From the NCBI RefSeq assembly GCF_019753045.1, contig NZ_JAIELN010000007.1, positions 186,001 through 250,000 of the forward strand: 64,000 bases of DNA, given 5' to 3'. The translations under genes and the position numbers were made by a program. Shown here in pieces: positions 45,373-64,000 of this stretch. Position 1 is the first letter of the stretch. Every line of letters begins with the position of its first letter. This DNA is from Hyphomicrobium sp. (GTDB lineage: Bacteria; Pseudomonadota; Alphaproteobacteria; Rhizobiales; Hyphomicrobiaceae). The notes beneath the pieces are model-generated. The model did no database searches, had not been told where the DNA came from, and was given only the letters and a program-made list of their open reading frames with translations.

Positions 45373-48300
45373 CTATTTGTCAATGCTCCACCCGTTCTGG
45401 GCACGTTTTCCCACGGCAAGTCGTCCGATGATTGCCCTATCGGCGATCGAGTAGAGAAAGCCAATATGGCGGACTCGGAAACCAAGAAGCTTCTTCTGTT
45501 CGGCACAGACGGCGAGCTGCTGCTTGTCCGGTGACGCCTGGACGCTCTCGATCGTGCAATTTCCCTCGGCGACTTTTGAGACAAGCTGTTCGAGTTCGGG
45601 CCAAAGCTGCGGTTGGTCGACAGCACGACGAGTGCCGTTGAGCATTTCAACGATTGGGACCAGCTTGAACTGTTGTTGCCGTGTGGCGAACGAGCAGTGG
45701 ACTTGTAGCCGGGTAAGATCGCAGGTGCGGATGTCATCGGGATGAGTTTCACGCCGACTCCACGCGCACGGTATGGCTTCGGATTTCGCGCAGCACTTAC
45801 CGGCATCGGATAGTACCGCCTCGTCTTCGAGGCACCGAACGCCAGAAATGCTGCTCGCAACAAGATATTGTTTCAGCGCCTTTCGTCCGCTGATCGAGGA
45901 GGCCTCAAGCTCATTCGGGATTACTCGACAGCGCGAGACGACGCACTCTTGGAGTTGACCTGGGAAGGCGGCCATTCCAGTGACGGCGCAATGCTCCGCC
46001 TCGGCGGGCACCATCGAGCGGCCGGTGAGACTGCATCCAATAAATTCTGAAATGTGCCCGACCTGGCCGGATACTTCGGAGCGTGCCGACTGATCGGCGC
46101 GGAACAGCTTGCCCGAGACCTGACTAAGTGAAAGCTCGGCGAGTAGCCCATCGGCGTGAGTGAAGGCGCAGCGCCCCATTTTATCCGGCTCGGCCTTCCG
46201 ACCGCTCAGGGACGAAGTACGCAGTAAGGACCGCAGGACAGGACGGCCGGTCGCATCGGATGGAGCAAGTTGGCTGGGTAGGACCCGCTTGTGTGAGACA
46301 GAACATTCTTGCAGCGAGCCAGGAACAACAAGCCGGCCTGTGACTTCGCATCGCTCGGCCTCTGCCGACAATAGGGTCCTCCCCGTGAGCGCGCACGTGA
46401 CGAATTCCGACGTGTGGCCGGTGCGTCCGGAAATGTCAGATGCGCCTGTCTGATCGGCACGGTATCGCTTCCCAGACACGTCGCTGACGGCCAATTCGGT
46501 AAGGAGTGCGTCGACATGAGTAAACTCACAACGGCCAATATGGGCCGGTTCGGCCTTCTGGCCGCTCAGAGACGAGGATTTCAGCAAACACCGCAGGACG
46601 AGCTTGTTTGTCACGGCCGATGCTTCGACCTCGGAAGCTAGGACCCGTTTGCCGCTCAAAGTGCAGAGAGCCATGTGCTCAGGAAGGGCGCAGCGGTCGG
46701 AAGCTTCGGATTTGACGAGAAGGTGCCGAAGTACACGCATTCCTGAGACTGCGCATTCACCGATCGCGTCAGCCGGGGCACGGGTGCCGGACTTCGCGCA
46801 GACGACCAACGGCGGCGCCGTTATGATCTGCGACGTCGATGGAGCAAGACGAAGGGTCGACGTGTACTCACTCTGGCCATCAAGCGAGTAAGTGACCTGT
46901 CCTTCGAGAATGCGATGCACGGTGCCGCGCAGGCCTGTGATGGTTGTTTGCAAGCGAGGAGTGAAATCGTCCTGGAGCTTCTTGCTAAGACGCGGGTCGT
47001 TGCCGGCGGCATGAACCTCCTCGGTGCGGCGTTCCGTATAGAACCTGCAGAATTCAGCGATGCCGGGATCGAGCATCACGCTGCGGCTGGTTCGATCGAG
47101 GGAGATGCCAATGGACTTGGGATCGTTGATGACGGGAGGCAGTGGGTCCAATGCTGCAATGCCGTCAACGAACTGGTGGTCGTCACCGGCGCAGTCCACT
47201 GAAATGAGGCGCTCATAGCTGTCATGGGCAACTGTAGCACGGACCTGCAACAGCGCCTGCCCCTCGAATGCGCGGGTTACTCTGGCCAGCTTTGCGGATC
47301 GAAGCGTGCCGCCGAACGATTTGACCCAGTCAGCGCAGATGGCTTGCGCCCGTTGTTGGGGATTGGCGTCGGCGTCGCGTACATAGTGGACGCCAGATTG
47401 CGTCACGCGGGTGATCAGTTGGTCAAATGCTTGCGAGCCCGGCGCATAGAGGATCGCGCGGGTTTCGGCATTTGGTTGGTCGACAAACGATATCCGTTCT
47501 CTTCTGCCATCAAGTTCGCAGATGACGGTGTCTGGCGGTTCTTCGGTGAGCTTGGCGCCCAACGCCTTCAGTCCGGCGAAGACAAAATCGCGAGCGGCCA
47601 TAGAGCGCGCTTGCGGGGGCAGATCGGGGCTGCGGGGGCCTTTGTAGGCGGCATCGTCCATCGAGCCGAGCATCTCGTTGATGGTGGCTTCTTCATCAGC
47701 GAGTGCTTGGCGGGCACGATCGATACTGTCTTCGGCGGCGCGTGTGGCTGCTTCGACGTCTTTGCCAGCGAGCGAGGAGAGAACGAGGCGCAAGATTTCG
47801 TCTTCAAAGCTCTCAGAACCGCCTTCCTCGCTGTCCGCCATGCCGGAAGCTTGGAGCAATGATTCGATATCGCCGATCGCGTGAGACGCCATCTGCAATT
47901 TCTGCATCAAGCGACCGACGATGTAGTCCTCGAATGTACCGGCGAGCGTGACGCTGTAGACGAGGACGTTGGCGTGATCAGAACCCAGACGTTGGATGCG
48001 TCCGATGCGCTGTTCCACGATCATGGGGTTCCACGGCAGATCGTAGTTCACCAGCACGTTAGCGGCTTGAAGGTTCACGCCTTCCGAGCCCGCTTCCGTG
48101 GAGACAATCACGTTCAATTCTGGTGGCTTTCCCTTGAAGGCAGCGATGGTTGCTTGGTTCTTCCCGGTGGTCTCGCCGTTGATGATGCCTACGGGAACAC
48201 CCAAAGACTCCAGGTAGGCTTGTATGGTCGTCTGCGTCTCGCGCCGTTGCGTAAAGACGACCATGCGCCAGTTTTTGGGATTTTCGCGCTTCAGCTTGTC

Positions 48301-49434
48301 GACAAGGGTGGCGAGCCCTTGGAGCTTCGCGCTCATCTTCATGCTCTTGACGATGGCGCGGAACTGAGAGGCGACGTTAGCCGGGAAAGTCCCCTTCTTC
48401 GCCATGTTTTCGAGTTGGAGGGCGCAGGCATCGGGGCTGCTGGTCAAGGCTTGTAAGATGCCGATCTGGGCCAACCGATTGAGTTTCTGGATCGGTCTGG
48501 CGATCAGCTTGATCAGCTCCCATTCTTCCGGCGTTGGGGTCACGCCCTGGCGAAATACCTTGCGGTTCGGGAAATGGAGTTGCGCATCAGCGCGGCGAAC
48601 ACGTGACATGTATCCGTAAACGATTGAACGGAACTGGTCCTTGGCCTCCGCTTTGAGCTGTCTAGCCTGCGTGCGGTTATCAGCGATGAAATTACGGGCG
48701 AACAGGCCTTCGCTGCCGAATGGGTTTTGATGGCCTCGTGCGACGGTGAGGAGGTCGACAAGCGAATAGAGGTCCCACAGCCGGTTCTGGATGGGCGTTG
48801 CCGTCAACATCAGCACGAACTTGAAGGCGCGGTCGGCAAGGACCTCGCGGAACCGGATGGCGACTTGGGGGGGCGTGGGGACGCCATATAGATTGCGAAG
48901 CTTGTGGGCTTCGTCGAGGATCATCATCTGGAAGCGGTCTGCCGGCAACCGCTTTATGTATTCGCGTGCCGAGTGATAGGTGGTGATGACCGCGCCTACG
49001 TCCCCGTCCGGATCGGCGTCCAGTAGCTTCTTGCCGGGAGCGACGGTGGCTGGAATGTTAAACTTCGTTTCGAGCTCCTCCTTCCACTGCGGGCCGAGGA
49101 GCTTGGGAGCAACAATGAGAATCTTGTTGAGTCGTCGGCGGGCAATCAGCTCGCTGGCGATGAGCCCCGCGCTGATGGTCTTGCCCAGACCCACATCGTC
49201 CGCAAGAAGCGTGACAGGGAGGCGGCGGCAGTAGGTGATGAGGTTGGTGACCTGGTGGTGGAACGGCTCGACCCGATCATGCCACCGCACCTCGGATTTG
49301 AGGTCTTCCCGGTCATTGATGATGATCGGATCGACAAGGCCCCATTCCAGGCCAGCACAGTACACGTCGAATTCGGCCGGATCTTTCGATCGGCGTAGCG
49401 GCTTGGTCTGGACCTGATGCGGCTGTGGAGGCAT
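45373..49434 (-). CDS. SNF2-family helicase with C-terminal 15-residue Cys/Ser repeats
   Basis: A 1353-residue protein from the ATG; a TTG 15 bases earlier is an alternative. Residues 50-520 form an SNF2/RapA-like ATPase: ADDVGLGKT (78-86), DEAH (174-177), LTATPIQN, STEAGSEGVNLQ (445-456) and EQRIGRIQRLG (474-484). The middle (520-870) is uncharacterised. From about residue 879 to 1252 the chain is made of some 25 repeats of 15 residues, consensus [C/S]-x-[VL]-[ST]-G-[KR]-x-x-L-x-x-E-[LA]-x-x, with an eight-repeat super-period. No nuclease motif was seen. It is 240 bases downstream of the nuclease-helicase gene and probably part of one system. Confidence 0.88.
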   Translation of the reverse strand: MPPQPHQVQTKPLRRSKDPAEFDVYCAGLEWGLVDPIIINDREDLKSEVRWHDRVEPFHHQVTNLITYCRRLPVTLLADDVGLGKTISAGLIASELIARRRLNKILIVAPKLLGPQWKEELETKFNIPATVAPGKKLLDADPDGDVGAVITTYHSAREYIKRLPADRFQMMILDEAHKLRNLYGVPTPPQVAIRFREVLADRAFKFVLMLTATPIQNRLWDLYSLVDLLTVARGHQNPFGSEGLFARNFIADNRTQARQLKAEAKDQFRSIVYGYMSRVRRADAQLHFPNRKVFRQGVTPTPEEWELIKLIARPIQKLNRLAQIGILQALTSSPDACALQLENMAKKGTFPANVASQFRAIVKSMKMSAKLQGLATLVDKLKRENPKNWRMVVFTQRRETQTTIQAYLESLGVPVGIINGETTGKNQATIAAFKGKPPELNVIVSTEAGSEGVNLQAANVLVNYDLPWNPMIVEQRIGRIQRLGSDHANVLVYSVTLAGTFEDYIVGRLMQKLQMASHAIGDIESLLQASGMADSEEGGSESFEDEILRLVLSSLAGKDVEAATRAAEDSIDRARQALADEEATINEMLGSMDDAAYKGPRSPDLPPQARSMAARDFVFAGLKALGAKLTEEPPDTVICELDGRRERISFVDQPNAETRAILYAPGSQAFDQLITRVTQSGVHYVRDADANPQQRAQAICADWVKSFGGTLRSAKLARVTRAFEGQALLQVRATVAHDSYERLISVDCAGDDHQFVDGIAALDPLPPVINDPKSIGISLDRTSRSVMLDPGIAEFCRFYTERRTEEVHAAGNDPRLSKKLQDDFTPRLQTTITGLRGTVHRILEGQVTYSLDGQSEYTSTLRLAPSTSQIITAPPLVVCAKSGTRAPADAIGECAVSGMRVLRHLLVKSEASDRCALPEHMALCTLSGKRVLASEVEASAVTNKLVLRCLLKSSSLSGQKAEPAHIGRCEFTHVDALLTELAVSDVSGKRYRADQTGASDISGRTGHTSEFVTCALTGRTLLSAEAERCEVTGRLVVPGSLQECSVSHKRVLPSQLAPSDATGRPVLRSLLRTSSLSGRKAEPDKMGRCAFTHADGLLAELSLSQVSGKLFRADQSARSEVSGQVGHISEFIGCSLTGRSMVPAEAEHCAVTGMAAFPGQLQECVVSRCRVIPNELEASSISGRKALKQYLVASSISGVRCLEDEAVLSDAGKCCAKSEAIPCAWSRRETHPDDIRTCDLTRLQVHCSFATRQQQFKLVPIVEMLNGTRRAVDQPQLWPELEQLVSKVAEGNCTIESVQASPDKQQLAVCAEQKKLLGFRVRHIGFLYSIADRAIIGRLAVGKRAQNGWSIDK
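45679..46800 (-). repeat. Coding repeat: about 25 units of 45 bases (15 residues) in the SNF2 gene
   Basis: Each unit begins with Cys or Ser and reads like CTLSGKRVLASEVEA or SDVSGKRYRADQTGA. Twenty-two units are exactly 15 residues, one is 14, then two more follow. Units 6-13 and 14-21 match one to one (SSLSGQKAEPAHIGR with SSLSGRKAEPDKMGR), so a block of 120 residues has duplicated. Thirteen units start with Cys, the rest nearly all with Ser. Confidence 0.9.
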
Positions 49435-49689
49435 CTGTCGGGCTGGCAATCACATCATGAGCAAAGCAGTCAACATTGAGGGTGGCCCCGAAGGATTGGC
49501 GCACGTGGTGGAGCAAGACCATCAAGACGTCGCAACATGATTCCCCCGTTGTGACCCGCAATAACGAGCAGTCTACCTCAGAGCGAAGCCGCATTAGAAC
49601 CCAAAATCAATCTGCCCCTTTTTGTTCACCGGAAAGGTGTTGGCGTCGGTGTCGGCACGAAGATTTGACGGATGTTGAGTTGGGGAAGG

Positions 49690-52600
49690 TCAATCACGAG
49701 GTTGACGCGCCTCAGAATTGACCGCCGGGCGGTCCTGCAGGGCCGGCGCTATGGTCTCGGCCAGCTCGATGAACCGGCAGAAGGCGTTCACGAGGTGGAT
49801 CTGACGCGGTGTACGGCACTCGGCTTCAAGAAGCTGCGGCGAGCTTACGATGATCGATATGCACTTGGCGCGAGATGTTGCGACATTCAGCCGGTTGAGG
49901 CTGTAGAGGAACTCTATGCCACGCGGCGCATCGGCATGGCTGGATGTCGCCATCGAGTAGATGGCGATCGGTGCCTCCTGGCCTTGGAACTTATCAACTG
50001 TGCCCACGCGAGCGGTGGGAAGTCGCCGCTGAATCTCGAATACCTGCGCGTTGTAGGGCGTGATGATTACGATGTCGGACAAGGTAAGGGGCCGCTCCTC
50101 GCCATCTCTGTCGATCCAAGTCGTTCCTGAGTGCAGGATGGATGTGACGAGTTCAGTGACGGCAGCGGCCTCCTCCGGCGAGCAACTCTGATTGCCGGAA
50201 TGTTCAACGGGCACGTAGCGCAGTCCTGCGCCTTGTACGGGTCCGCGCGATTTGATCACCTGCATATCCAAGCCATCCTTGGAGCGGAGCTTGCCGTCAT
50301 AGAAGAGTTCGGAAGTGAAGGCGGTGATCTCAGGGTGGAGCCGCCATGTCTGCTCCAGGAAAATACCTTTGGCGGCAGGAACGGTGTGCACGCCATCGAG
50401 AATGTGCGTGAGGGCTGAGACGCCCGTATCATCAGGATGCGTACCCTTCATTGGCTGATCGAGCTGCTGCGGATCGCCGAGCAAAACCACGGCTTTTGCG
50501 GACTGGGCGATAGCGAGCACGTTAGCTAGAGACATCTGCGCGGCTTCATCGACGAAGAGTACATCGAGCGCGCCACAGACATCGGGACGAGACCAGAGCC
50601 ACGCGGTTCCGCCGCCTACCTGAATGCCGGTGCCGAGGGCGCTGATGAAGGCCTTGTTGTCCTTAACCGACGCGAACATCGGCTTGGCAGTCACAAGCTC
50701 ATCGGTCTTATGAGCGCATGCAATGGTCAGGCCTTGTTTCATGGCCTCGTCGATGACTCCGTCCAGGAGGTGCTGAATGACCTTATGGCTGTTCGCGGTG
50801 ATGCCGACTGTCTTGCCCTGGCGAACCAGCTCGCAGATCATTCGCGCGCCTGTGTAGGTCTTACCAGCTCCGGGCGGACCTTGGATGGGCAGGATGCCGC
50901 CTTGCAAATGAGCGCATAGACGGACGGCTGCGTCTGTCGCGGTTTCGCCTTCGCACATCAACAGCTCTCCTCCAGTGCGCGGTACGCTCTTCAAGAGAAG
51001 ATCGCGGGCCGCCTGGAAAGGACCATCGCCCGTCAGACCGTGATCTACGACATACTCGGCGAGGCGAGCCAACGCATCGGAGAGAACTGCAGTGGGAACG
51101 AGCTTAAGGGCGAACACGGCCTCGGGGTGAAGGGAGGCGGAGGCCTTCGACTTCTTGATATCGATCGTGCGATTTTCGAAGTAGATGGCTTGCACGCTTC
51201 CAAGCGGTTCACCGCCAGCAGCGCGAAGATCTTCATCTCCGCGAAGGTCCGTGTCCTGGGCCGGGAAACTGTAGCGGTGTACAGGTGTGGTTGCCTTGCT
51301 TCCCGGTGGGGGAGGAACGACACCAACAAAGCGAAGAGCGGAGAGCGCGGAGCGCTCGTCCATTAGATCTTCGGGAGCCAAGGCCTTCAGGCGGAAGTAC
51401 TCCCACCAGACCGCTTTGTCCTCGCGGCGATGGAAGTCGAGGATGTTGGCGAGTATCCATCGGCCGTCCTGGTCAGCGGTACGCGCGGCGGGATCAGCGG
51501 GGACGCCTTCGGTGAGATTCTCGATCAGCGGCCGAATACGCAGCAGCCAGTCGGTGATTTTCTCGTTCGGGCTGCCATCGCCCGGCTCGGGGCGCGGAAC
51601 GTCAGCACCGCGAGCGATCGCTTCGGCTCGCAGCTCTTCGAGCCAGTTGCGGAGAGCTGAGGCTGAACGGCAATCATCTTCGTTATAGGCGCGGACCACC
51701 TCTTTGGCGTCTTCGGAGATGCCCGCGATATCGCCCCGCTCAAGCCCGGCCTGCAGAGCTGCAAGCGCAGTGCGCGCATCGGCCAGTGGCGTGTGCCGTT
51801 CGAACCTGAAGAAGGGCTCGATCTGCTTGATCGAGTAGCTCTCGACGCTGGCACGAAGCGCCCTGCGTACTACCGCAAAGAGATCGACGAAGAGGCCGGC
51901 CCGCAGCATGCGATCGATCTCTTCTTCCCTCGTCGCATAGCGCCCCATCAGTCGCTTGAGGGCGGCTGGCTCATAGGGGGCGTAATGATAGATGTGCAAG
52001 CCCGGAAAGCGTTCCCAGCGGGCCATGACCAGATCGACAAACACCTCGAAAGCCTTCTTTTCATCGTCACGGATGAATGCCCAGTGGCCGGTGTAGGTGG
52101 TTCGGCCCTCCTCTTCGCGGAGATATCCGAAGAGAAACTCGATCCCGTGCTCGCCAACGAATGGATCGGCTTCGAAATCGAGGAAGATATCGCCAGAGTT
52201 GGGAGCGGGCAGGCAGCACAGACCGAAGCCTGGCTCGATGGGCAGGATCTCGATTTTGCGTTCGCCGGACTCTCGGGCATCGAACTGAAGACGAGCTTGC
52301 TCTCGAATGCGGACATAGCTGTCGGCTGAGCCGCGGTCGGGCTTCCAGCTCAACGGGACTGGTATAGCGGCGAGCTGTGCGAGTGTGCCGATGCCGCGCG
52401 CCTTGAGCTCTCCAATCTGAAGCTTGGAGATGTTGGCGACAAGGCAGAGGTGATCATCGTTGCGGCGGCGCTCGTCGCAATTCTCTCGCCACCGGCATAC
52501 GTCGCAGTGATCTTTGGGGTCGGGGTAAGTGGTGTCGGCGGAAGCTGGGGCGGACATGGAGCCTGCGAGCGCTCGCTTGACCTTGCGGAAGTAGGCCGCA

Positions 52601-53157
52601 CAATCGGCGTAGCGGAATTGCTGGGGAACGAAATCGCTCCAAGGGGCGACGACGGACATGAGAGCCGGCTCGACCCCTTGCGAGTGCGCCAGAAGATCGG
52701 AATACAGGCAAAGCTGGAGGATAGCGCCCGCCTTGGTCTCCCGTGCGAGTTTGGTGTCGATGGCCTCGTAGGACCACGAACCGAAGCGGCTGGGCTTGGT
52801 CTCGACACGCCGAAGAACGTCAGCGCGACCGATCCATTTCTCATGAGCGAGTGCGCCCTGGACAATTACCTGTGCGCCGCTCTGCATGGCAGCTATCGTC
52901 TCTGCTACGGCTGCGTCCGTCACCTCGACGCCATCGATGCGAACGACCGAATATCCAGCGGCTTGGAAGTGTTCGATGTAGGCCTGCTCATGAGCGGAGC
53001 CGCGCTCGGAGAGGATTTGCAAGAGCGGATCCCAAATCTTGGGCTTGGGCATTGCGCCTTCAGCGACGGCGCGATCGAGCCCGGTGAGGTGCCGGCAGTT
53101 GAGATGGCCGACAAGATCGCTGGCACTGAGTTGAAACGTCTCCCCCGATCTGCGCAT
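49690..53157 (-). CDS. RecB-like nuclease, RNase H-like exonuclease and SF1 helicase fusion (TM0106/Dna2-like)
   Basis: A 1155-residue protein with AGGGGGAACCA before the ATG. Residues 1-230 form a Cas4/AddB-like nuclease: Cys21 and Cys218-x2-Cys221-x5-Cys227 are the Fe-S ligand pattern, with ETKPSRFGSWSYEAIDTKLA and QLCLYSDLL as the core. Residues 320-510 form a DEDD/RNase H-like exonuclease (FLDFEADPF, YNEDDCRS). Residues 730-1130 form an SF1 helicase: GPPGAGKT (760-767), FVDEAAQM (868-875), GDPQQLD, TVDKFQGQEAPI and LNVATSRAK. It is a complete DNA-processing enzyme. Confidence 0.93.
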   Translation of the reverse strand: MRRSGETFQLSASDLVGHLNCRHLTGLDRAVAEGAMPKPKIWDPLLQILSERGSAHEQAYIEHFQAAGYSVVRIDGVEVTDAAVAETIAAMQSGAQVIVQGALAHEKWIGRADVLRRVETKPSRFGSWSYEAIDTKLARETKAGAILQLCLYSDLLAHSQGVEPALMSVVAPWSDFVPQQFRYADCAAYFRKVKRALAGSMSAPASADTTYPDPKDHCDVCRWRENCDERRRNDDHLCLVANISKLQIGELKARGIGTLAQLAAIPVPLSWKPDRGSADSYVRIREQARLQFDARESGERKIEILPIEPGFGLCCLPAPNSGDIFLDFEADPFVGEHGIEFLFGYLREEEGRTTYTGHWAFIRDDEKKAFEVFVDLVMARWERFPGLHIYHYAPYEPAALKRLMGRYATREEEIDRMLRAGLFVDLFAVVRRALRASVESYSIKQIEPFFRFERHTPLADARTALAALQAGLERGDIAGISEDAKEVVRAYNEDDCRSASALRNWLEELRAEAIARGADVPRPEPGDGSPNEKITDWLLRIRPLIENLTEGVPADPAARTADQDGRWILANILDFHRREDKAVWWEYFRLKALAPEDLMDERSALSALRFVGVVPPPPGSKATTPVHRYSFPAQDTDLRGDEDLRAAGGEPLGSVQAIYFENRTIDIKKSKASASLHPEAVFALKLVPTAVLSDALARLAEYVVDHGLTGDGPFQAARDLLLKSVPRTGGELLMCEGETATDAAVRLCAHLQGGILPIQGPPGAGKTYTGARMICELVRQGKTVGITANSHKVIQHLLDGVIDEAMKQGLTIACAHKTDELVTAKPMFASVKDNKAFISALGTGIQVGGGTAWLWSRPDVCGALDVLFVDEAAQMSLANVLAIAQSAKAVVLLGDPQQLDQPMKGTHPDDTGVSALTHILDGVHTVPAAKGIFLEQTWRLHPEITAFTSELFYDGKLRSKDGLDMQVIKSRGPVQGAGLRYVPVEHSGNQSCSPEEAAAVTELVTSILHSGTTWIDRDGEERPLTLSDIVIITPYNAQVFEIQRRLPTARVGTVDKFQGQEAPIAIYSMATSSHADAPRGIEFLYSLNRLNVATSRAKCISIIVSSPQLLEAECRTPRQIHLVNAFCRFIELAETIAPALQDRPAVNSEARQPRD

Positions 53158-53437: not shown

Positions 53438-54226
53438 TCATTCGATCATATCCGGATGAAGGAGCAGGATGGTGACAACGCCCTCGCCGGGGACCCTGAA
53501 GGACTGTTCAGTAATCTCGTATCGCTCTGCTGCGCGATTGTCGAACCAGGCGTCGGCGCCGATCTTGCGCGGAAAGCCCTCATCCCGGACGGTCGAATTA
53601 TGCAGCAGTTCGAATGCGAAACTTTCGCTATCCAGGGCGTCTTTGGGAAACCAATAGCCTGGAACTTGCACTGCCCCCCTAAACCACTTTCGACCAATGA
53701 CGGCACGGTGCTGCACCATCATCGCTGTTGGATAGAGAGTGCTGTCGATCATGCGTATCAAGGTCGCTGTGAGGCTACAGTTGAAGCTGCCGGCCATGAC
53801 TTTCAACGCCTTCAAATCCAAGCGAGGGTGCTTCCGGCACTCCCGCTTGAACATAGACCAAGGCATCAGCAGATCGGCCGCGTATTGATCCGCAGCCCGC
53901 TCTCCCTGATTGGTCTTAGAAAACCCGCCGATCTCTGTCGCTCTGCAGGCGACCGACTGCCCTCTATGATGCGCCCAGTGACCCAGTTCATGTGCGATGG
54001 AGAACCGCTGTCGTTCCGGCATGCTAGTTGGAAGCACGGAGATGATGCCTTTGTTTCCCATCCCGGTGATCATGGCTTCGCAGCTCGTGAGACGTCGTCT
54101 CTTGATGCGAAGGCCCACGTAATACGCGATGGCTTCTATATCGATGTCGCCCGGCTGAGCGATGCCCAGCGAACGCAGCAACGCGTCAGGCGACACGTTG
54201 GTTGGAAGTGGATCAATCCTTTTCAC
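53438..54226 (-). CDS. ImmA/IrrE family metallo-endopeptidase
   Basis: About 262 residues. It has the zinc protease motif FSIAHELGHWAHH, the downstream Glu in GERAADQYAADLLMP, and a C-terminal domain of about 100 residues. The start is uncertain: GTG at 54226 overlaps the upstream stop by 14 bases, and a TTG at 54250 is the longest option. ImmA/IrrE proteases cleave repressors or anti-sigma-like proteins in response to stress or phage. Third gene of an operon divergent from the Ubl-E2 genes. Confidence 0.88.
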   Translation of the reverse strand: MKRIDPLPTNVSPDALLRSLGIAQPGDIDIEAIAYYVGLRIKRRRLTSCEAMITGMGNKGIISVLPTSMPERQRFSIAHELGHWAHHRGQSVACRATEIGGFSKTNQGERAADQYAADLLMPWSMFKRECRKHPRLDLKALKVMAGSFNCSLTATLIRMIDSTLYPTAMMVQHRAVIGRKWFRGAVQVPGYWFPKDALDSESFAFELLHNSTVRDEGFPRKIGADAWFDNRAAERYEITEQSFRVPGEGVVTILLLHPDMIE

Positions 54227-54584
54227 GATCGTCGTCTTCAAGTTCGGCAAGGTCTTCTAGGATGGCTTCGATGTCGCCCTCCATTGATCCATCACCAAAG
54301 CGAGCAGCCAAAGTGATGCGTGCAGTTTCATCACCCGCCTTGGCTCGTTCCAGGAGCCGCCGGGCCCGTTCGAGATCAAGACCCTTTAAGTTTGATTGTT
54401 GCGCCCACGTGGCTGCACCCACCTTGGCCCGTACAAAACGCGCGCGGGCCACACGCGCTTCTCCGGCGTTGATTGCGCTGTTAAAGAGATCCACACTGGA
54501 CTGATCCTCAGGTTCAACGGGTGAGTTGTCCGACAGGATGAATTCGAGGAAGTTGTCCAAGGCCTCCTTCTTTCTATCGTTCAT
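54213..54584 (-). CDS. Hypothetical acidic helical protein
   Basis: A 123-residue protein with no recognised family. It has helical segments (RAKVGAATWAQQSNLKGLDLERARRLLERAKAGDE) and a very acidic C-terminus (EDLAELEDDDREKD). ATG shares a base with the preceding stop (TGATG). Its place between a sigma-like and an ImmA-type gene suggests it could be an anti-sigma or protease substrate, which is inference only. Confidence 0.75.
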   Translation of the reverse strand: MNDRKKEALDNFLEFILSDNSPVEPEDQSSVDLFNSAINAGEARVARARFVRAKVGAATWAQQSNLKGLDLERARRLLERAKAGDETARITLAARFGDGSMEGDIEAILEDLAELEDDDREKD

Positions 54585-55171
54585 CAGGACCGTCCTTCCT
54601 TCGCCAGATACTCGCTGGCGAGTTTGTCGATCTGGCGGTTCAGTCGAGTGCGGAGGGCCGCCAGACGCTTTGTATCGACGCCGACTGCTTCTTGCAGGGC
54701 CTGTCCGATAAGGCAGTCGTTAAGCCCCATCAGCAGCAGCTCCATTTCCTCGTCTCCGGCGAAGTGCGCCGCCAGTTTCGACATCGCATCCTCGAGCAGA
54801 GCCTTCTCTCCCGCAAACGCTCCGTCAGGCGGGGCGGCAACCGTATCCATATCCTCAATCCCAACCACGGCGAACTTGTTCTTCAGCGCCTTCACTTTCC
54901 TCTCATCGGTCAAGAACATCCTATCCGTCAGGAGGCTCTTCATCACCCCAGTCACGAATGACGCGAAAGCGTGCGATTTCGGCCACGGGCGCCGTCCTTC
55001 GGCAATCCTGACGTAGGCCTCGTTTAAGAGTTCGTGGGGCGACGCAAACCGGCCTTCGCCGGCCAATGCCTTGGCCGCCCTAGTTAAGTTGCGCCTTTCG
55101 AGATCGGACAAACTTTCGAACGCGCCGACAGCGTCATCAGCGGAGTAGAAAGAATCGTCGGGCTGATCCAC
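54584..55171 (-). CDS. Sigma-70-like small regulator
   Basis: A 195-residue protein from the GTG six bases after GGGGAG. The layout fits an ECF-like sigma: ELLNEAYVRIAEGRRPWPKSHAFASFVTGVMKSLLTDRM resembles region 2, and LLLMGLNDCLIGQALQEAVGVDTKRLAALRTRLNRQ resembles region 4 helix-turn-helix. The call is by pattern, not by a family search. First gene of the operon, divergent from the Ubl-E2 gene over a 194-base gap. Confidence 0.65.
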   Translation of the reverse strand: MDQPDDSFYSADDAVGAFESLSDLERRNLTRAAKALAGEGRFASPHELLNEAYVRIAEGRRPWPKSHAFASFVTGVMKSLLTDRMFLTDERKVKALKNKFAVVGIEDMDTVAAPPDGAFAGEKALLEDAMSKLAAHFAGDEEMELLLMGLNDCLIGQALQEAVGVDTKRLAALRTRLNRQIDKLASEYLAKEGRS

Positions 55172-55365
55172 CAAGGTCTCCCCGAAATTTTGACAGATCA
55201 CAGATTAGCGCGACCATATTCGATTCTCCACTGCCTCCCGGCTGACATGTGTGCGCGTGAGGCGGCGAATTCTGACACTCAAATTTTTTTTGTCGGAATC
55301 CATCTGTCCGCCCGCACACCTCATAGGACGGCTCGCCGTCATCCACACGGCTGTGAGGGCTATAT
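55172..55365. promoter_or_regulatory. Divergent intergenic region with a 14-base palindrome
   Basis: The control region between the sigma-like operon and the Ubl-E2 operon. It holds GACGGCTCGCCGTC (55327-55340, perfect palindrome) and a run of eight T (55286-55293). GAGGG precedes the Ubl-E2 ATG by five bases. No standard promoter boxes were assigned. Confidence 0.4.
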
Positions 55366-56469
55366 ATGACGACCGGATCTGCCGCACCGCGGCGAGACAA
55401 CAAACCGAACATCGAAATCGCTGGCACGGACCTGGATTTCCGCGCCGTCAAGCTGGACAGTCGGACACCAACCGGCGGTCAGATTGCCAAGGCCGCAGGC
55501 TTCGTGGGCGACCAGCACCCCTATATCCTGCAGTGGCTGGCAAACGGGGACTTTGAGGACATCCGCGTTCACGAGGAGGCCGATCTCGACAAGGGCATCA
55601 AGTTCATCGTCGCGGAAAGCAGCAGCTCGAACCGCATCACCGTCGACGGTGAACAGATCGACTGGCCGGCGGGCGTGATCACCGGCGCGGTGATCCGGAA
55701 GCTCGGCAGGGTTCCTGCCGAAAACTCCATCTACCTTGTCCGGGAGGACGAACCGGATCGGTTGGTCGAAGAGCACGACGTCATAAAGATCAAGGCGGAC
55801 GGCATCGAAGAGTTCAAGAGCCGGAGGCCCGAGGCTTGGGAGCTGATCGTCCAGGGTAAAAAGATCATCTCCATCAGCCCGGTAATCTCGGTCGTTGAGG
55901 CCCTAACGCGGGCAGGCTTCGACCCGAATGCTTGGCTCATCTTCCTCAAAGTGGAGGGCCAGCGCAAGCGCCAGCTGGCAATCGGCGATTCCGTCGATTT
56001 GCGCACGCAAGGCATCGAGAAGATTCGGCTAACGCCGAAGGACGTCAACAACGGTGAGGCGCGCCCTACGGGCCGCCGTGACTTCGCACTTCTCGCCGCC
56101 GACCAGCTATACCTCGACGATTTGGGTTTGAATTGGGAAACCGACAATGCTGAAGGACAGCGCTGGCTGATCATCCACGAGTACCCCGTGTTGGCCGGCT
56201 ACACCATTCGCACGACGACCCTTGCCCTGCTGATCCCGCCCACCTATCCGCAGGCCGAGATCGACATGTTCTTTGTGCATCCGCCCCTTCACAGGGCATC
56301 GGGTGGCGACATTGCAGCGACTGAGGCCGCGCAGATGATCCAAGGCCTGTCTTTCCAGCGCTGGTCACGCCATCGCGGTGCTGGATCTCAGTGGAACCCC
56401 GCCGCCGACAATGTCGTCAGCCATTTGGCACTCGTGGACACCGCCATCGCCAAGGAGGTGGGGGAATGA
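55366..56469 (+). CDS. Three ubiquitin-like domains fused to an E2-like domain (multiubiquitin/Prok-E2_E)
   Basis: A 367-residue protein. Residues about 14-84, 88-150 and 157-224 are three related beta-grasp units. Each opens with a strand of the type IEIAGTDLDF, ITVDGEQIDW or LIVQGKKIIS and ends before a short acidic linker. Residues 237-362 form an E2-like fold of the prokaryotic family E: LAGYTIRTTTLALLIPPTYPQAEIDMFFVHPPL, then GGDIAAT and a terminal RWSRHRG...W. There is no Cys anywhere in the chain. The site that would carry the catalytic Cys reads GGDIAAT. It overlaps the E1-like gene by four bases. Confidence 0.85.
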   Translation: MTTGSAAPRRDNKPNIEIAGTDLDFRAVKLDSRTPTGGQIAKAAGFVGDQHPYILQWLANGDFEDIRVHEEADLDKGIKFIVAESSSSNRITVDGEQIDWPAGVITGAVIRKLGRVPAENSIYLVREDEPDRLVEEHDVIKIKADGIEEFKSRRPEAWELIVQGKKIISISPVISVVEALTRAGFDPNAWLIFLKVEGQRKRQLAIGDSVDLRTQGIEKIRLTPKDVNNGEARPTGRRDFALLAADQLYLDDLGLNWETDNAEGQRWLIIHEYPVLAGYTIRTTTLALLIPPTYPQAEIDMFFVHPPLHRASGGDIAATEAAQMIQGLSFQRWSRHRGAGSQWNPAADNVVSHLALVDTAIAKEVGE

Positions 56470-57866
56470 GTTCGGTGAGAACCTTGGCTCTTGCCGGCGT
56501 CACCCATGATGCGCTGCATGCCCACCTTTTCCCGGGCGACGGAAACGAGGCGGCGGCCATTCTTGTATGTGCCAGGTCGCCTGATCCACGGTGCCGCTTG
56601 GTAGTCCGCCAGGCCATCTTGGTCCCGCATGATGCCTGCTCCGTGCGCACGCCGGATGCGGTTGTCTGGCCGGGGTCGTACATCGAAGACGCCATTGACG
56701 TGGCGGAGCCTGAAGGGCTCGCGATCCTGCTTCTCCATTCCCATCGTGGTGGCTGGCTGGATTTCTCCCCCATCGACGACGCCAGCGATGCCACGGTTCT
56801 GCCGGGCATCTTCGAGGCCTTCGACGCTTGCCACGGTTCGGCGGTGATGACGCCGGACGGCGCGATCCGGGCGAGACTCTATTCGCCGGACATGAGGTGC
56901 GCCCCAGTCGATCTCGTCACGGTTGCGGGCGACGACATTCTGTATTGGTGGAGCGACGGCATCGTCGCCGGCGAGCCGTCCGGACGCGCTCTGGCATTCA
57001 CGGGCGGTATGAGCTCGGAGCTCTCCCGCCTTTCAGCGACCGTGGTAGGCGTGTCCGGAACCGGTTCGATTGCCGCCGAGCAACTGGCGCGGCTCGGCTT
57101 CGGCAACATCACCCTCGTCGACTTCGACATGGTCGAGACGAAGAACCTAAACCGGATCTTGAACGCGACGACACGCGATGCCGAAGCCCAACGCTTGAAG
57201 GTCGACATGTTTGCGGGCGCCATCGCTTCCCACCGGGGAGAAGGTATCGCTCGGAAGGTGCCGACCACAATAGCGACCCGTGAGGCCATCTGCGCCGTCG
57301 GTCAATGTGACGTTGTCTTCTGCTGCGTCGATACACAGGAAGGTCGCTACTTTGCCGACCTGATCGCTTCCGCGTTCCTGTTGCCCTTGTTCGACGTCGG
57401 CGTCACCATTCCGACCCACAACTCCGATGGGAGGACGTCGATCGCCGACGTCTGTGGCCGCATAGATTACGTACAGCCGGGTGGATCGACGCTTGGTGAC
57501 CGGGAAGTCCATACGCCTCGAGGCCTGCGTGCCGAATATCTGCAACGCGTCGATCCGCAGGCGTTCAGCAACGAGGTAACGGCAGGGTATATCAAGGGCG
57601 TCACCGAGCAAGCCCCAGCCGTCATCACTTTAAACATGCGCGCGGCTTCAATGCTGGCGAACGAGTTCATTGCTCGGGCGTACCCCTTTCGGCTGGAGTC
57701 CAATCGCCTCTATGCGCGCACGTCCTTCAGCCTGGCTGCATGCGAGGAAGACTATCGTAGCGAAGACAGCTTCCCGAAAAGCGAGAACAGAGTGTTCGGT
57801 CTTGGCGCGACCGAACCGTTGCTTGGATTGCTGATGTTCCAGACCCCGACGGCGGCAGCAGCATGA
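56466..57866 (+). CDS. JAB-domain/E1-like (ThiF) fusion protein
   Basis: A 466-residue protein. The N-terminal domain (about 1-180) has a complete JAMM motif, HSH (91-93)-x7-Ser101-x2-Asp104 (HSHRGGWLDFSPIDD), expected to bind zinc and cleave isopeptide or peptide bonds. The C-terminal E1-like domain has VVGVSGTGSIAAEQLARLG (GxGxxG), LVDFDMVETKNLNR (DxDxVExxNLNR) and the crossover-loop region VCGRIDYVQPGGST. The usual Cys in PGxxC is Ser/Thr here, although Cys330 is close by. Starts inside the stop of the Ubl-E2 gene. Confidence 0.88.
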   Translation: MSSVRTLALAGVTHDALHAHLFPGDGNEAAAILVCARSPDPRCRLVVRQAILVPHDACSVRTPDAVVWPGSYIEDAIDVAEPEGLAILLLHSHRGGWLDFSPIDDASDATVLPGIFEAFDACHGSAVMTPDGAIRARLYSPDMRCAPVDLVTVAGDDILYWWSDGIVAGEPSGRALAFTGGMSSELSRLSATVVGVSGTGSIAAEQLARLGFGNITLVDFDMVETKNLNRILNATTRDAEAQRLKVDMFAGAIASHRGEGIARKVPTTIATREAICAVGQCDVVFCCVDTQEGRYFADLIASAFLLPLFDVGVTIPTHNSDGRTSIADVCGRIDYVQPGGSTLGDREVHTPRGLRAEYLQRVDPQAFSNEVTAGYIKGVTEQAPAVITLNMRAASMLANEFIARAYPFRLESNRLYARTSFSLAACEEDYRSEDSFPKSENRVFGLGATEPLLGLLMFQTPTAAAA

Positions 57867-59833: not shown

Positions 59834-59938
59834 GTCGCCCTCCTTAGCTCCGCATAATCAAGGCTCATCCGGGCCGCACACTTTTCCACAATAATCAGGC
59901 GGAGCACGGACTGCTCTGGCCGATGTTACGTGCCAGGC

Positions 59939-62818
59939 ATGGTTAAACCTCGTGGACGCTCCCCGAATCAAGCTGGTAGTTCGCTCATCCAAGTGCCCCC
60001 GCCAACACACTTGCACCAGACCATGAAAACCACCGCCAAAAAGCCGGCAGAGATTCGCGTCGCGGCCCCGGGCCGGCTGCGTTCGCTGCTGCTTGACGGA
60101 ACCGATCCCGTCGTACTGCTCGGAGCCGGCGCGTCAATCACATCGGGCGTACCAGCGGCTGCAACGATGGTTGACAAGGCAGCACGCTGGGCATGGTGCA
60201 AGGAGAATGGCCGTCACACAGAAGATTTCACGATACGTCGTTCAGACTACTGGCCATGGCTCACTGCGTTCCCGTGGTTTCGCTCCGATGTGGAACCCGC
60301 CGAACTTTATCCGGTCGTCATCGACAATCTGCTCGGGATCAAGCGAGATCGACGCGAATTCTTTGAGCGAATGATCAATCCGGGGGTTGATCCGTCGCGC
60401 GGGTACGTCGCGCTGACCCATATCCTTCACCAGGGATGGATGTCGACCGTACTGACAACAAATTTCGACCGCTGCCTTGATCTCGCCGCGATTCAACACA
60501 ACCGACCACATCGCTTGGTGAGCATCGCCACTCCGGCCGACTACGTAATGTTCAACTCGGCACCCCAAGATCCCCAACTGATCTTCCTTCATGGATCGGT
60601 GCAGCATTACACGGACAAGAATCTGACTGCCGAAGTTCAGACACTCGATCCCGCCCTCGTTGAACGGCTGAAACCACTACTGCGAGACCACCCGATCATT
60701 GTCGTTGGTTATCGCGGTGCAGAGGCTTCGGTGATGAACGACCTGTTCATGGCCCAAGCGACAACAGGCGGTTTTCTCAATGGCGTTTTCTGGTGCGTAC
60801 TTGAATCGGAGCGTGACAAGCCTCTCTCGCCCCTGGTGACGGGCCTGGCAGGAACCATCGGCTCCAATTTCCAAAAAGTGCCGATCGTGGGCTTTGACGA
60901 CCTCTTCGAAAAAGACCTGCTTGCGAGCATGACTGCAGCCAAAGCCCGTCCGACGAGGAGACCGTCAGGTCACAGTGCCGCTGGCATGCCTGCCGACATG
61001 AAGCCTCTTGACGGCTTCGACCCAAAAGGGCTCGAGCGCCCACTCTTAGCTGCACGGCTTGGACAATATGCTGAGCGCACCGATCTTGGGCGGCCTGAAA
61101 AGATTGATGACGGATGGCTCGAGCTTATGACCGGGCGCCTCGATCTCGTTCGACCGGTTGGCAAAGCTACAGTACCGACGCTCGCGGGCTGGTTACTGTT
61201 TGCTGCGAATCCCACCGAGCGATTTCCGCAAGCGCGCGTCGAATTCCGGGCCACTGGCCCATCGCACTGGCTTCACGCCCGTTTCGGCGATGATATCGAG
61301 CTCGAACCGGCCGGCAAGCTCGCGGAGTTTACAGTCAGGCGTGAAATTCATGGAAACCTCTGGGCTCAACTTGATGCGTTGACCGACCTTCTCGCGCTCG
61401 TCAATTTTCAGTTCCGTCTCAAGGCCGAAGTTTCGAAGACCGTCAGCGCTTACAATGCGCTTGCGCTGAAGGAAATGCTGGTGAACGCCATTGTGCACAG
61501 AGACTACGAACGTGACGAGCCGGTCACGATCTTAGTCGAACCTGGCAATATCGCAGTAACTAGCCCCGGGGGTTTGATCAGCGAACTTGCTGCACAGCTC
61601 GACGAGCACACATTCCAACAAGCCATCACCGAACGTCGTGGGCAGATCAAAGGTTACCGCAATCCAGCGATATCAGACCTGTTTTATGGCGGCGGCCAGA
61701 TGGATCGGCGTGGCTCCGGCCTATCCGACATGCTCCGCCTTACCGCCAACAACAATGGAACTCTGGTTTTTGGTCCGTCGGCTGACAATCGGCTGTTCAC
61801 CGTTACCATGGGAGCGCGCCCCGAAGCGATCGACGAGATCACTGCTACCGCACTTCCTATCGAAGAAGAGACCGTCCGGTATGGCTCGAACCTTCTTCCA
61901 ATCGAGGAGATGCCGACGACAATCTGGCACGCTGCGACCAGTGCCAAGACCAACCGCGCCTTTTACAAGTCAGTCGAGGAATTGGCCGTGCCGCCGGGGC
62001 ATGTCAGTGATGGTCGCTTCTATTCGTTTTACGATCTGGAAGCGTTAGCCGAAGCGATGGTTTCTCCATTCGAGGCAGGGGATATCGAAAGCATAAGCAT
62101 CAGCGAAATGCTCACGCGACCGGGCGGAGAGGCCATTTTGCTCAAACTTGTCCACAACGCTCTTTTCGAACACTTCCGATCGAAAGGGCTTGAGATCGAC
62201 CGCGAACGGCGGCGTGCTTACTTCAGGCGCAACACAAAACCAGAGGTCAAGATCAGCTATCAAGGCCGCCTGCGAAAAGCGACGCGCACCGTTGTTAAGG
62301 CGCGCACCAAGCGCGACTCCAACGATATCGTCTATTACGAGCACAAGGCCGTCACGTTTTCGGTGATGCGTTTCACGGACGACTGGGCGGTAGTCCTCAC
62401 GCCAGGGTATGCATTCACGCGTGACGGCGTGCGTACGCCGCTTAGTCGTGAACGAACCAATATCCTCTCCACGCGAAGGGCGGCGCTAGATTTCAACCCA
62501 AGCGTTCTGCATGACGTATCATTCTGGGTTGCGATCCTCTCGGGCGAAGCTCAAGGCCTTTTTGCGCTTGAGCATGAGGATCGGAATGACCTCGCTCGTT
62601 TCGCACCGTCGATCATCCTTTCGCACCGGACGCCGACGATCTCGTTCAACATTGCTGCATTTGAGAATTCTGCGCAGGCAGACCCTACAATATCAGAAGA
62701 CCTCAAACGCCTTGACGATGAACTCGAAGCGCTCGCTGCGGAGCCCGAGGAGCTGAGCGACACACCTGACGATACCGAGCTCGATTCCATCTCGCATGAG
62801 GACGATGATGACAATTGA
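59939..62818 (+). CDS. SIR2-HATPase-APAZ fusion, partner of short Argonaute
   Basis: About 959 residues; the ATG at 59939 is used, with GTG 59930 and ATG 60023 as alternatives and no clear ribosome site. Residues about 45-330 form a SIR2 NADase-type domain: VVLLGAGASITSGVP, TTNFDR and FLHGS. About 390-630 form a COG2865-like module: VPTLAGWLLFAANPTERFPQARVEF, ALKEMLVNAIVHRDY, RRGSGLSDML. About 655-910 form an APAZ domain (LVHNALFEHFRSKGLEIDRERRRAYF...VVLTPGYAFTRDG...LFALEHED). The acidic tail ends the chain. It overlaps the Argonaute gene by 11 bases. By family knowledge, SIR2-APAZ proteins deplete NAD+ when the guide-loaded pAgo binds target DNA or RNA. Confidence 0.9.
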   Translation: MVKPRGRSPNQAGSSLIQVPPPTHLHQTMKTTAKKPAEIRVAAPGRLRSLLLDGTDPVVLLGAGASITSGVPAAATMVDKAARWAWCKENGRHTEDFTIRRSDYWPWLTAFPWFRSDVEPAELYPVVIDNLLGIKRDRREFFERMINPGVDPSRGYVALTHILHQGWMSTVLTTNFDRCLDLAAIQHNRPHRLVSIATPADYVMFNSAPQDPQLIFLHGSVQHYTDKNLTAEVQTLDPALVERLKPLLRDHPIIVVGYRGAEASVMNDLFMAQATTGGFLNGVFWCVLESERDKPLSPLVTGLAGTIGSNFQKVPIVGFDDLFEKDLLASMTAAKARPTRRPSGHSAAGMPADMKPLDGFDPKGLERPLLAARLGQYAERTDLGRPEKIDDGWLELMTGRLDLVRPVGKATVPTLAGWLLFAANPTERFPQARVEFRATGPSHWLHARFGDDIELEPAGKLAEFTVRREIHGNLWAQLDALTDLLALVNFQFRLKAEVSKTVSAYNALALKEMLVNAIVHRDYERDEPVTILVEPGNIAVTSPGGLISELAAQLDEHTFQQAITERRGQIKGYRNPAISDLFYGGGQMDRRGSGLSDMLRLTANNNGTLVFGPSADNRLFTVTMGARPEAIDEITATALPIEEETVRYGSNLLPIEEMPTTIWHAATSAKTNRAFYKSVEELAVPPGHVSDGRFYSFYDLEALAEAMVSPFEAGDIESISISEMLTRPGGEAILLKLVHNALFEHFRSKGLEIDRERRRAYFRRNTKPEVKISYQGRLRKATRTVVKARTKRDSNDIVYYEHKAVTFSVMRFTDDWAVVLTPGYAFTRDGVRTPLSRERTNILSTRRAALDFNPSVLHDVSFWVAILSGEAQGLFALEHEDRNDLARFAPSIILSHRTPTISFNIAAFENSAQADPTISEDLKRLDDELEALAAEPEELSDTPDDTELDSISHEDDDDN

Positions 62819-64000
62819 GCTCTCCATACAGGAATTAGCGCCGCCCAAGCTACAGTTTGGCGGAGCGAGTGCCCATAGCGATCCGAAAGTCGGCCTTGCT
62901 CATGCTGGCCCATTTGACCTCCGTTTCGGCTCGGCTCGCAAAGACCATGTTCATGTTGGGGTGATCGGATCAGCCGAACAAGTCGCAGCTGCGATGTTGT
63001 GGGTGGAGCGATGCGGTAACGAGATACCTGTGTTCGGCGAGCCAAATTTGCTCAAACGAGCATTTCCCGGCTTTCAGGATGCATTCCACAAACGAATCGT
63101 GGCGCCGTCTTCATCCACCATCACGCTGTCGCTGGACAAGAGTGGTGATCTTGGGCGCGCGCTCGACGGCGATGCTTACGACTGCTTTCAGCGTGTCGTC
63201 GATGTCTATTCCGAGGCCTTGTCGCGTCTTGCGTTGCGCGAAGTCAACCGACCAGACATCGTGCTCATATGCATTCCTGAGATTGTTCATTCCAAAGTCA
63301 GTACCGTAGAGCGCAAGACGTCGGCCGCCGAGCGCCAGCGCGCCAAAGAGCTGCAGCGTGCCCGCGCCAACAACCAGATGGACCTTTTCGATCAGTTGGA
63401 CGAAGTCGAACAGACTGCCGAGGACTTCTTGAAGCGCGATCTGAGGCTCGCTCTGAAGGCTCGGGCTCTAAGGTATCGTCTCCCTATCCAACTCGTGACT
63501 GATGGGCTGCTCAATGACGCCGCCCGCAGCCAGGACCCAGCTACCCGTGCCTGGAATTTTTCAGTAGGCCTATATTACAAGGCCGGCGGCGTTCCGTGGC
63601 GCCTGCCGCCGAGCGGTCCTGATACATGCTTCGTCGGCATCAGCTTTCACCACTTCAGGACAACCCAAAGGGCCATAGTTCGGTCTAGTCTGGCCCAAGC
63701 ATTCTCCAGCGACGGTGAGGGCTTTGCCATTCGAGGCGAGGCCGTGCCCCTTGAACCAGACCAAGGGCGCAATGTGCACTTGTCGGAAGACCAGGCATTC
63801 GAGCTCGCTCGCAATGTACTTGCTGAATACGAGCGGCGAACAGGCGGCGCGCCGCTACGTGTGGTCTTGCACAAGACCTCGTCGTTCAACGACGCTGAAA
63901 CAGAGGCTTTCGAAATCGCCCTGAAGAATACGCCAATCGTATCCATGGTCACATTGGTGCCGAGCCAGTTCCGGCTCCTCAGGTACGGTGCCTATCCACC
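62808..64000 (+). CDS. Short prokaryotic Argonaute (MID-PIWI), 3' end outside window
   Basis: About 397 visible residues from ATG 62808 (ATG 62805 also possible); the frame is open to the window end. It has no PAZ or N-domain. MID-like residues include the LICIPEIVHSKVSTVERK and DLFDQL region, and PIWI begins with GGVPWRLPPSGPDTCFVGISFHH. The first catalytic Asp of DEDX is replaced (FVGIS instead of GID), and later HKTSSFNDAE and SMVTLVPSQFRLLRYG follow the fold. This fits catalytically inactive short pAgos, which signal through an APAZ-fused effector. It overlaps the SIR2-APAZ gene. Confidence 0.88.
   Translation, partial: MTIELSIQELAPPKLQFGGASAHSDPKVGLAHAGPFDLRFGSARKDHVHVGVIGSAEQVAAAMLWVERCGNEIPVFGEPNLLKRAFPGFQDAFHKRIVAPSSSTITLSLDKSGDLGRALDGDAYDCFQRVVDVYSEALSRLALREVNRPDIVLICIPEIVHSKVSTVERKTSAAERQRAKELQRARANNQMDLFDQLDEVEQTAEDFLKRDLRLALKARALRYRLPIQLVTDGLLNDAARSQDPATRAWNFSVGLYYKAGGVPWRLPPSGPDTCFVGISFHHFRTTQRAIVRSSLAQAFSSDGEGFAIRGEAVPLEPDQGRNVHLSEDQAFELARNVLAEYERRTGGAPLRVVLHKTSSFNDAETEAFEIALKNTPIVSMVTLVPSQFRLLRYGAYP

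Follow-up and report, generated by a model that had tools for sequence, protein, structure and literature searches.

Bacterial operons of the kind described here were classified by Iyer et al. (2006, PMC1779556) as operon type 6e. In the section of that paper that deals with them, type 6e resembles the present locus in having ubiquitin-like (Ubl) repeats, an E2-like domain that lacks Cys, a fusion of JAB and E1 domains, and a small metal-binding-like protein. The E2-like domain is called catalytically inactive there, and the PGxxC set is not discussed in its section 14. An E2 without Cys has been known from these operons since 2006, and a paper on the Bub mechanism appeared in 2026; the Cys-less E2 is not new. 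In the EMBO J in 2026 (PMC13373217), the name Bub operons is used and 544 of them are counted. This paper says that protection against phage by Bub has yet to be demonstrated, and it cites Ye et al. 2026 (10.1038/s41594-025-01696-1). The closest known system is the BUB of Citrobacter, which is represented by the PDB entries 9ea4, 9ea5, 9ea8, 9eae and 9eav, with 9d59 as a further entry for BubA (Ye et al. 2026, Gong et al. 2025).

The operon and its surroundings

The window (the whole stretch of 64,000 nucleotides of Hyphomicrobium DNA that was analysed) contains, as judged by homology and gene order, an intact BUB (bacterial ubiquitination-like) operon that consists of a BubA-BubB fusion, a JAB-ThiF protein (BubCD) and a DUF6527 protein (Table 1). 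On the fusion protein, Pfam Multi_ubiq matches in three separate stretches (4.9e-29) and Prok-E2_E covers residues 242-363 (E 2.5e-35). In phmmer searches against the PDB, its multi-Ubl part is homologous to the solved BubA (chains 9d59, 1.7e-55, and 9ea8, 2.2e-20), and its E2-like part is homologous to the solved Citrobacter BubB (9eav_D, 5.4e-35), with an E2 site that has no Cys in this alignment. The 466-aa protein matches Citrobacter BubCD 9ea4 over residues 4-455, practically its full length (2.1e-148), and its JAB residues are kept; Pfam recognizes ThiF (3.5e-21) and, below the family cut-off, Prok-JAB (7e-4). The DUF6527 gene, which we take to be bubE, adjoins bubCD, as it also does at locus L045, and the order bubAB / bubCD / DUF6527 is also present in Citrobacter freundii pOZ181 and E. 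coli TW05614. The window's genome holds one Prok-E2_E and one DUF6527 protein, and a search of this genome for the other E2 families PF14461, PF14457 and PF00179 gave no match, as was likewise the case for the controls, so that the genome may still encode an E2 that acts in trans.

Table 1. Features of the bub locus, with positions in the window.
Feature	Position	Strand	Basis
CapP-type M78 metallopeptidase, divergent, probable regulator	53438..54250	-	PADLOC capP 1.3e-57; Pfam Peptidase_M78 3.9e-12
123-aa protein, divergent	54213..54584	-	no family match at cut-off (Pfam, NCBIfam, PADLOC); relatives in L021, L044, L064
205-aa protein, weakly ECF sigma factor-like, divergent	54584..55201	-	NCBIfam TIGR02999 1.1e-3, well under the cut-off
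bubA-bubB fusion, three Ubl units and Prok-E2_E domain, 367 aa, 0 Cys	55366..56469	+	Pfam, PDB chains
Gly230 codon, presumed mature BubA C-terminus (junction NNG, then E)	56053..56055	+	solved BubA ends; presumed cleavage
E2-like (BubB) domain, subject of the original prediction, residues 237-363	56076..56452	+	Pfam Prok-E2_E
GGDIAAT, residues 313-319, presumed usual E2 Cys region (distance from HPP 305-307)	56302..56322	+	
bubCD, JAB peptidase domain and ThiF/E1-like domain, 466 aa	56466..57866	+	PDB 9ea4, Pfam
PGGST, residues 338-342 of BubCD; Thr342 in the column of the sister clade's first Cys	57477..57491	+	alignment
Tyr375 codon (GYIKG) of bubCD	57588..57590	+	conservation
bubE-type gene, DUF6527, 111 aa	57863..58198	+	Pfam DUF6527 1.1e-25

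The divergent CapP-type peptidase, the 123-aa protein and the 205-aa protein all have relatives beside Bub genes at the loci L021, L044 and L064, and relatives of the 205-aa protein are found at L021, L038, L044 and L064 (E <= 3e-48). This sigma-like protein may be a regulator in the place of CapH. Downstream of the operon, the region 59930-64000 (+) is a defence island, with a SIR2-APAZ type protein (PADLOC Aga_SIR2) followed by a short pAgo (1.3e-101) that runs past the end of the window. On the other side, at 45373-53157 (-), two large helicase-type proteins are encoded, for which the best PADLOC matches are DrmD and MkoA.

Cysteines in the E2-like domain

The 367-residue Ubl-E2 protein was predicted to have no Cys and to read GGDIAAT in the E2 active-site region, and both statements were confirmed. 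A domain of about 135 aa without Cys is unremarkable alone; the telling point in the alignment is that none of its columns holds a conserved Cys. Across the 45 aligned E2 domains (score of at least 60 bits, nine loci dropped), the richest column has a Cys in 11 domains, at residue 304, and two columns near GGDIAAT have one in five and four domains, which means that the conserved catalytic E2 Cys of a canonical relay was not found. Tyr294, Ser334, His336 and Trp343 are present in all 45 domains. The proposed alignment of E2 family E homologues therefore bears out the lack of a conserved Cys but not a complete lack in every member, as domains without any Cys make up 11 of the 25 in the window's clade and 5 of the 20 in its sister clade (the two clades are defined below). 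At the sister-clade loci L052, L055 and L056, the E2 has no Cys at all although the E1 carries four characteristic ones. The absence of a conserved E2 Cys from both clades is, on this alignment, a trait of the family and not damage, and it means that the Cys-free mode extends beyond the clade of the Citrobacter type.

The PGxxC motif and two clades of BubCD

BubCD has Cys at positions 35, 43, 58, 122, 145, 276, 281, 286, 287, 330 and 426. The E1-like partner was correctly described as having PGGST with a Cys eight residues earlier (Pro338 and Cys330). The PGxxC Cys that is missing here was taken to be catalytic, and this part is not supported by the homologues. In MoeB, ThiF and UBA5, a set of four Cys, formed by the CxxC that starts at PGxxC and a C-terminal CxxC, binds structural zinc. 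BubCD was aligned for 60 loci, with the frame-broken L047 and the duplicates L024, L066, L042, L043 and L072 set aside; for residue counts, L063 (a near-copy) and L065 (partial) were also excluded, leaving 58 rows, 25 without and 33 with the PGxxC Cys. As this column was the sorting criterion for the rows, the 33/33 for that Cys is true by definition. In the 33 rows of the sister clade, the second Cys of the CxxC, three residues on, is present in 32, and the C-terminal CxxC is present in 22, while ten rows end before this region and L060 lacks the pair. Both the second Cys and the C-terminal CxxC are absent from all 25 rows counted of the window's clade, so that neither the window nor its clade has the zinc-site pattern. 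In this clade, the PGxxC column holds T in 11 rows, S in 10, N in two, G in one and C in one; the row with the lone Cys, L075, is also without the second Cys and the C-terminal pair. The rows with N (L048 and L068) and G (L051) all have PD and not PG just before this column.

In a tree of 50 of the 60 rows (380 aa), the 25 four-Cys proteins and the 25 others are split by one branch with a support of 100/96, and none of 500 shuffles gave a split as low; the long branches of L071, L060 and L077 call for caution in reading this tree. Since the tree and the other Cys columns agree, the split is not a mere artefact of sorting by the PGxxC column. The PGxxC Cys thus behaves as a member of a four-Cys, zinc-type set, which makes the catalytic reading probably wrong, and the window's clade has probably lost this set. 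The loss in the window then need not mean the loss of a thioester Cys. The C-terminal CxxC aligns with its MoeB/ThiF counterpart at sub-significant level only (-3.1 and -2.8 bits), and the full four-Cys set was not found in 12 MoeB-like rows of nearby genomes. The four-Cys type is present at the locus L004, whose genome belongs to the same genus as the window, and both types are therefore present within one genus.

The crossover loop and a proposed mechanism without thioester

In 59 BubCD rows, no conserved Cys was found in the crossover loop after the PGxxC motif in either clade, and the E1 crossover-loop Cys of a canonical relay is thus missing as well. The original prediction that an ordinary thioester relay is unlikely is borne out by this pattern of Cys in the homologues, and it is highly likely that BUB uses no thioester relay. 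Tyr375 is kept in 53 of the 54 rows that cover it (25/25 in the window's clade and 28/29 in the sister clade), the sole exception being a Phe in L071; four rows do not cover the position. The same place, Tyr370 in Citrobacter numbering as counted from D104A, is Tyr in the chains 9ea4 and 9ea5 and Phe in 9eav, whose entry also contains BubA and BubB. We infer that this Phe was introduced deliberately, like D104A in the published Citrobacter construct. In an automatic alignment with 12 MoeB-like proteins, which all have the crossover Cys, this Cys stands four columns before Tyr375 and beside a gap, so that the equivalence of Tyr375 is only approximate.

The gene order, the protein families and the fact that neither the E2-like domain nor the crossover loop has a conserved Cys are read directly from the sequence. 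The best explanation as a whole, an intact BUB operon with a non-thioester mechanism, has a probability of about 0.75. In this mechanism, cleavage after Gly230, possibly the work of the DUF6527 protein (Ser88/His98), would release BubA with its three Ubl units from BubB, and Gly230 would be adenylated by the ThiF domain of BubCD. The acyl group would then pass to an oxygen nucleophile, for which Tyr375 in the crossover loop of the E1 is the likeliest candidate, or it would move from the adenylate directly to a target lysine. BubB would act as a non-covalent adaptor with an E2 fold, and the JAB domain would reverse the conjugate. Tyr375 is at present only a tentative candidate for the acyl acceptor: its conservation is the same in both clades, L071 has Phe, and it may be structural. 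Ye et al. 2026, the Bub mechanism paper, reportedly deals with an oxyester route, and the Tyr375 mechanism may already be published there. A broader proposal holds that both clades are thioester-free, that the invariant Tyr375 would accept the Ubl in an aryl ester bond and pass it on to a lysine held by the Cys-free E2 fold, and that the four-Cys set would be structural and lost or gained once; this proposal is rather doubtful.

The main alternative to a Tyr375 ester has no covalent enzyme intermediate, as the target lysine would attack the BubA adenylate and BubB would only bring the target. BubB has no conserved nucleophile and the adenylation residues N227, R230, K245 and D289 of BubCD are present in every row, as this route would have it, but the near-invariant Tyr375 and the Phe in 9eav are left unexplained. 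It is somewhat unlikely, and the Tyr375 ester is slightly favoured over it. In another route, the hydroxyl of Thr342 at the PGxxC place would replace the catalytic Cys and carry the oxyester. The residue is T or S in 21 of the 25 rows of the clade; against this, two rows have N, one has G and one has C, and the sister-clade Cys in this column belongs to the zinc-type set described above, which makes the route improbable. Ser334 of BubB, or another residue, is an equally improbable acceptor.

A thioester formed through another Cys of BubCD (Cys287, Cys330, Cys35 or Cys58) is a still poorer prospect. Cys287 is found in 25/25 and 29/33 rows of the two clades, but it lies within the strand motif DCTDN that is common to MoeB and ThiF. 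Cys35 and Cys58 are present in 25/25 rows of the window's clade, but they belong to the JAB part and are shared by only 9 and about 2 rows, respectively, of the sister clade. Cys330, the residue that the original prediction had noted eight positions before the motif, was rejected as a stand-in nucleophile, being present in 14 of the 25 rows of its own clade and 0/34 of the sister clade. For the preferred non-thioester mechanism, the survey points to Tyr375 and not to the PGxx[S/T] hydroxyl as the target for mutagenesis.

The modifier end and the DUF6527 protein

The solved BubA chains 9d59 and 9ea8 stop at the Gly that aligns with Gly230. Of the 25 rows of the window's clade, 15 have NGE at the fused junction and four have TEG, TDG or QDG, while six are unfused. 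Among seven unfused BubA proteins, four terminate in TEG, which is where the fused proteins have their junction; in two the Gly is followed by one or two residues, and one lacks the Gly. The Ubl units look like modifiers because of the free TEG ends and the solved BubA that ends at Gly, and the sequences favour BubA as a modifier whose C-terminal Gly is set free by cleavage. The other possibility that had been raised, that the array of Ubl units serves as a substrate or scaffold, draws on the fusion of three units to an E2-like domain; it is very improbable and was rejected on the free C-terminal Gly of the unfused relatives, and BubA and BubCD were also co-deposited in 9ea8 and 9eav.

Ser88 and His98 of the DUF6527 protein are invariant in 17 aligned rows and fit the role of a serine peptidase, which this protein presumably has. 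A search of the PDB with it gave no relative at E<=1. Of 17 loci examined for an unfused BubA, four (L052, L055, L056 and L082) already expose the Gly and still have DUF6527; as these loci need no release of BubA, DUF6527 must have a further use.

Integrity of the copy

The JAB residues E28, H91, H93, S101 and D104 are conserved in every BubCD row that covers them. The bub genes are under purifying selection according to the comparison with Sinorhizobium L044, in which BubCD has dN 0.24 and dS 1.90 (dN/dS about 0.13) and BubAB has dN 0.24 and dS 1.22 (about 0.20), with dS near saturation in both; a third comparison was saturated. Decay of this copy alone, which the original prediction had named as the finding that would overturn it, is the least probable reading of all: the JAB motif is HSHRGG where most relatives have HSHPGG, but all frames are open, the lack of Cys is common to the clade, dN/dS is low, and the JAB, ATP-site and DUF6527 residues are kept. 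AlphaFold models, each built from three rows, were too poor to use, with a mean pLDDT of 35.9 for BubCD and 38.0 for DUF6527. The locus is most likely an intact copy that is predicted to encode a working, non-thioester conjugation pathway.

Spread

In a phylum sample, 9 of 398 genomes have a Prok-E2_E match, six of them over the cut-off, and in an order sample 16 of 397 genomes have one. Relatives of BubCD are present in 158 of 72,556 plasmid records and in none of 50,697 phage records. A scan of genome contigs for further loci gave one locus, and scans of viral contigs gave 0, 2, 1 and 1, of which the last two repeat contigs already found. On the viral contig of L064 (1753-8559), the Bub operon and the same divergent regulators adjoin a head maturation protease and a major head protein; this operon is prophage cargo. 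In L047, a plasmid of Enterobacter hormaechei, the copy of the operon is broken across several frames.

Comparison with known systems

If the non-thioester reading is true, ubiquitin-like tagging needs no Cys, and BubB shows a role of the E2 fold without chemistry of its own. Bil (BilABCD) and the E1-E2 protein Cap2 of CBASS share the bacterial Ubl/E1/E2/JAB logic with the window. In contrast, BilB has a catalytic Cys (PMC11354881), and the window has neither such a Cys nor a separate E2 that carries one. The sister clade, with Synechocystis pSYSX (L055), Oscillatoria (L056) and Rhizobium phaseoli (L052) as examples, has the same genes as the window, no conserved E2 Cys, no crossover-loop Cys, and Tyr375. 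It differs in having PGxxCxxC and the C-terminal CxxC, and its BubA and BubB are often separate genes. The Citrobacter BUB is most similar: it shares with the window the order of multiubiquitin-E2 fusion, JAB-ThiF and DUF6527, as well as PGGST, the Cys-free E2 site and the NNG junction, and the window's BubCD is about 52% identical to that of Citrobacter freundii pOZ181. The two differ in their divergent regulators, which are CapP and the sigma-like protein in the window and a hypothetical protein with a winged-helix protein as a pair in Citrobacter freundii pOZ181.
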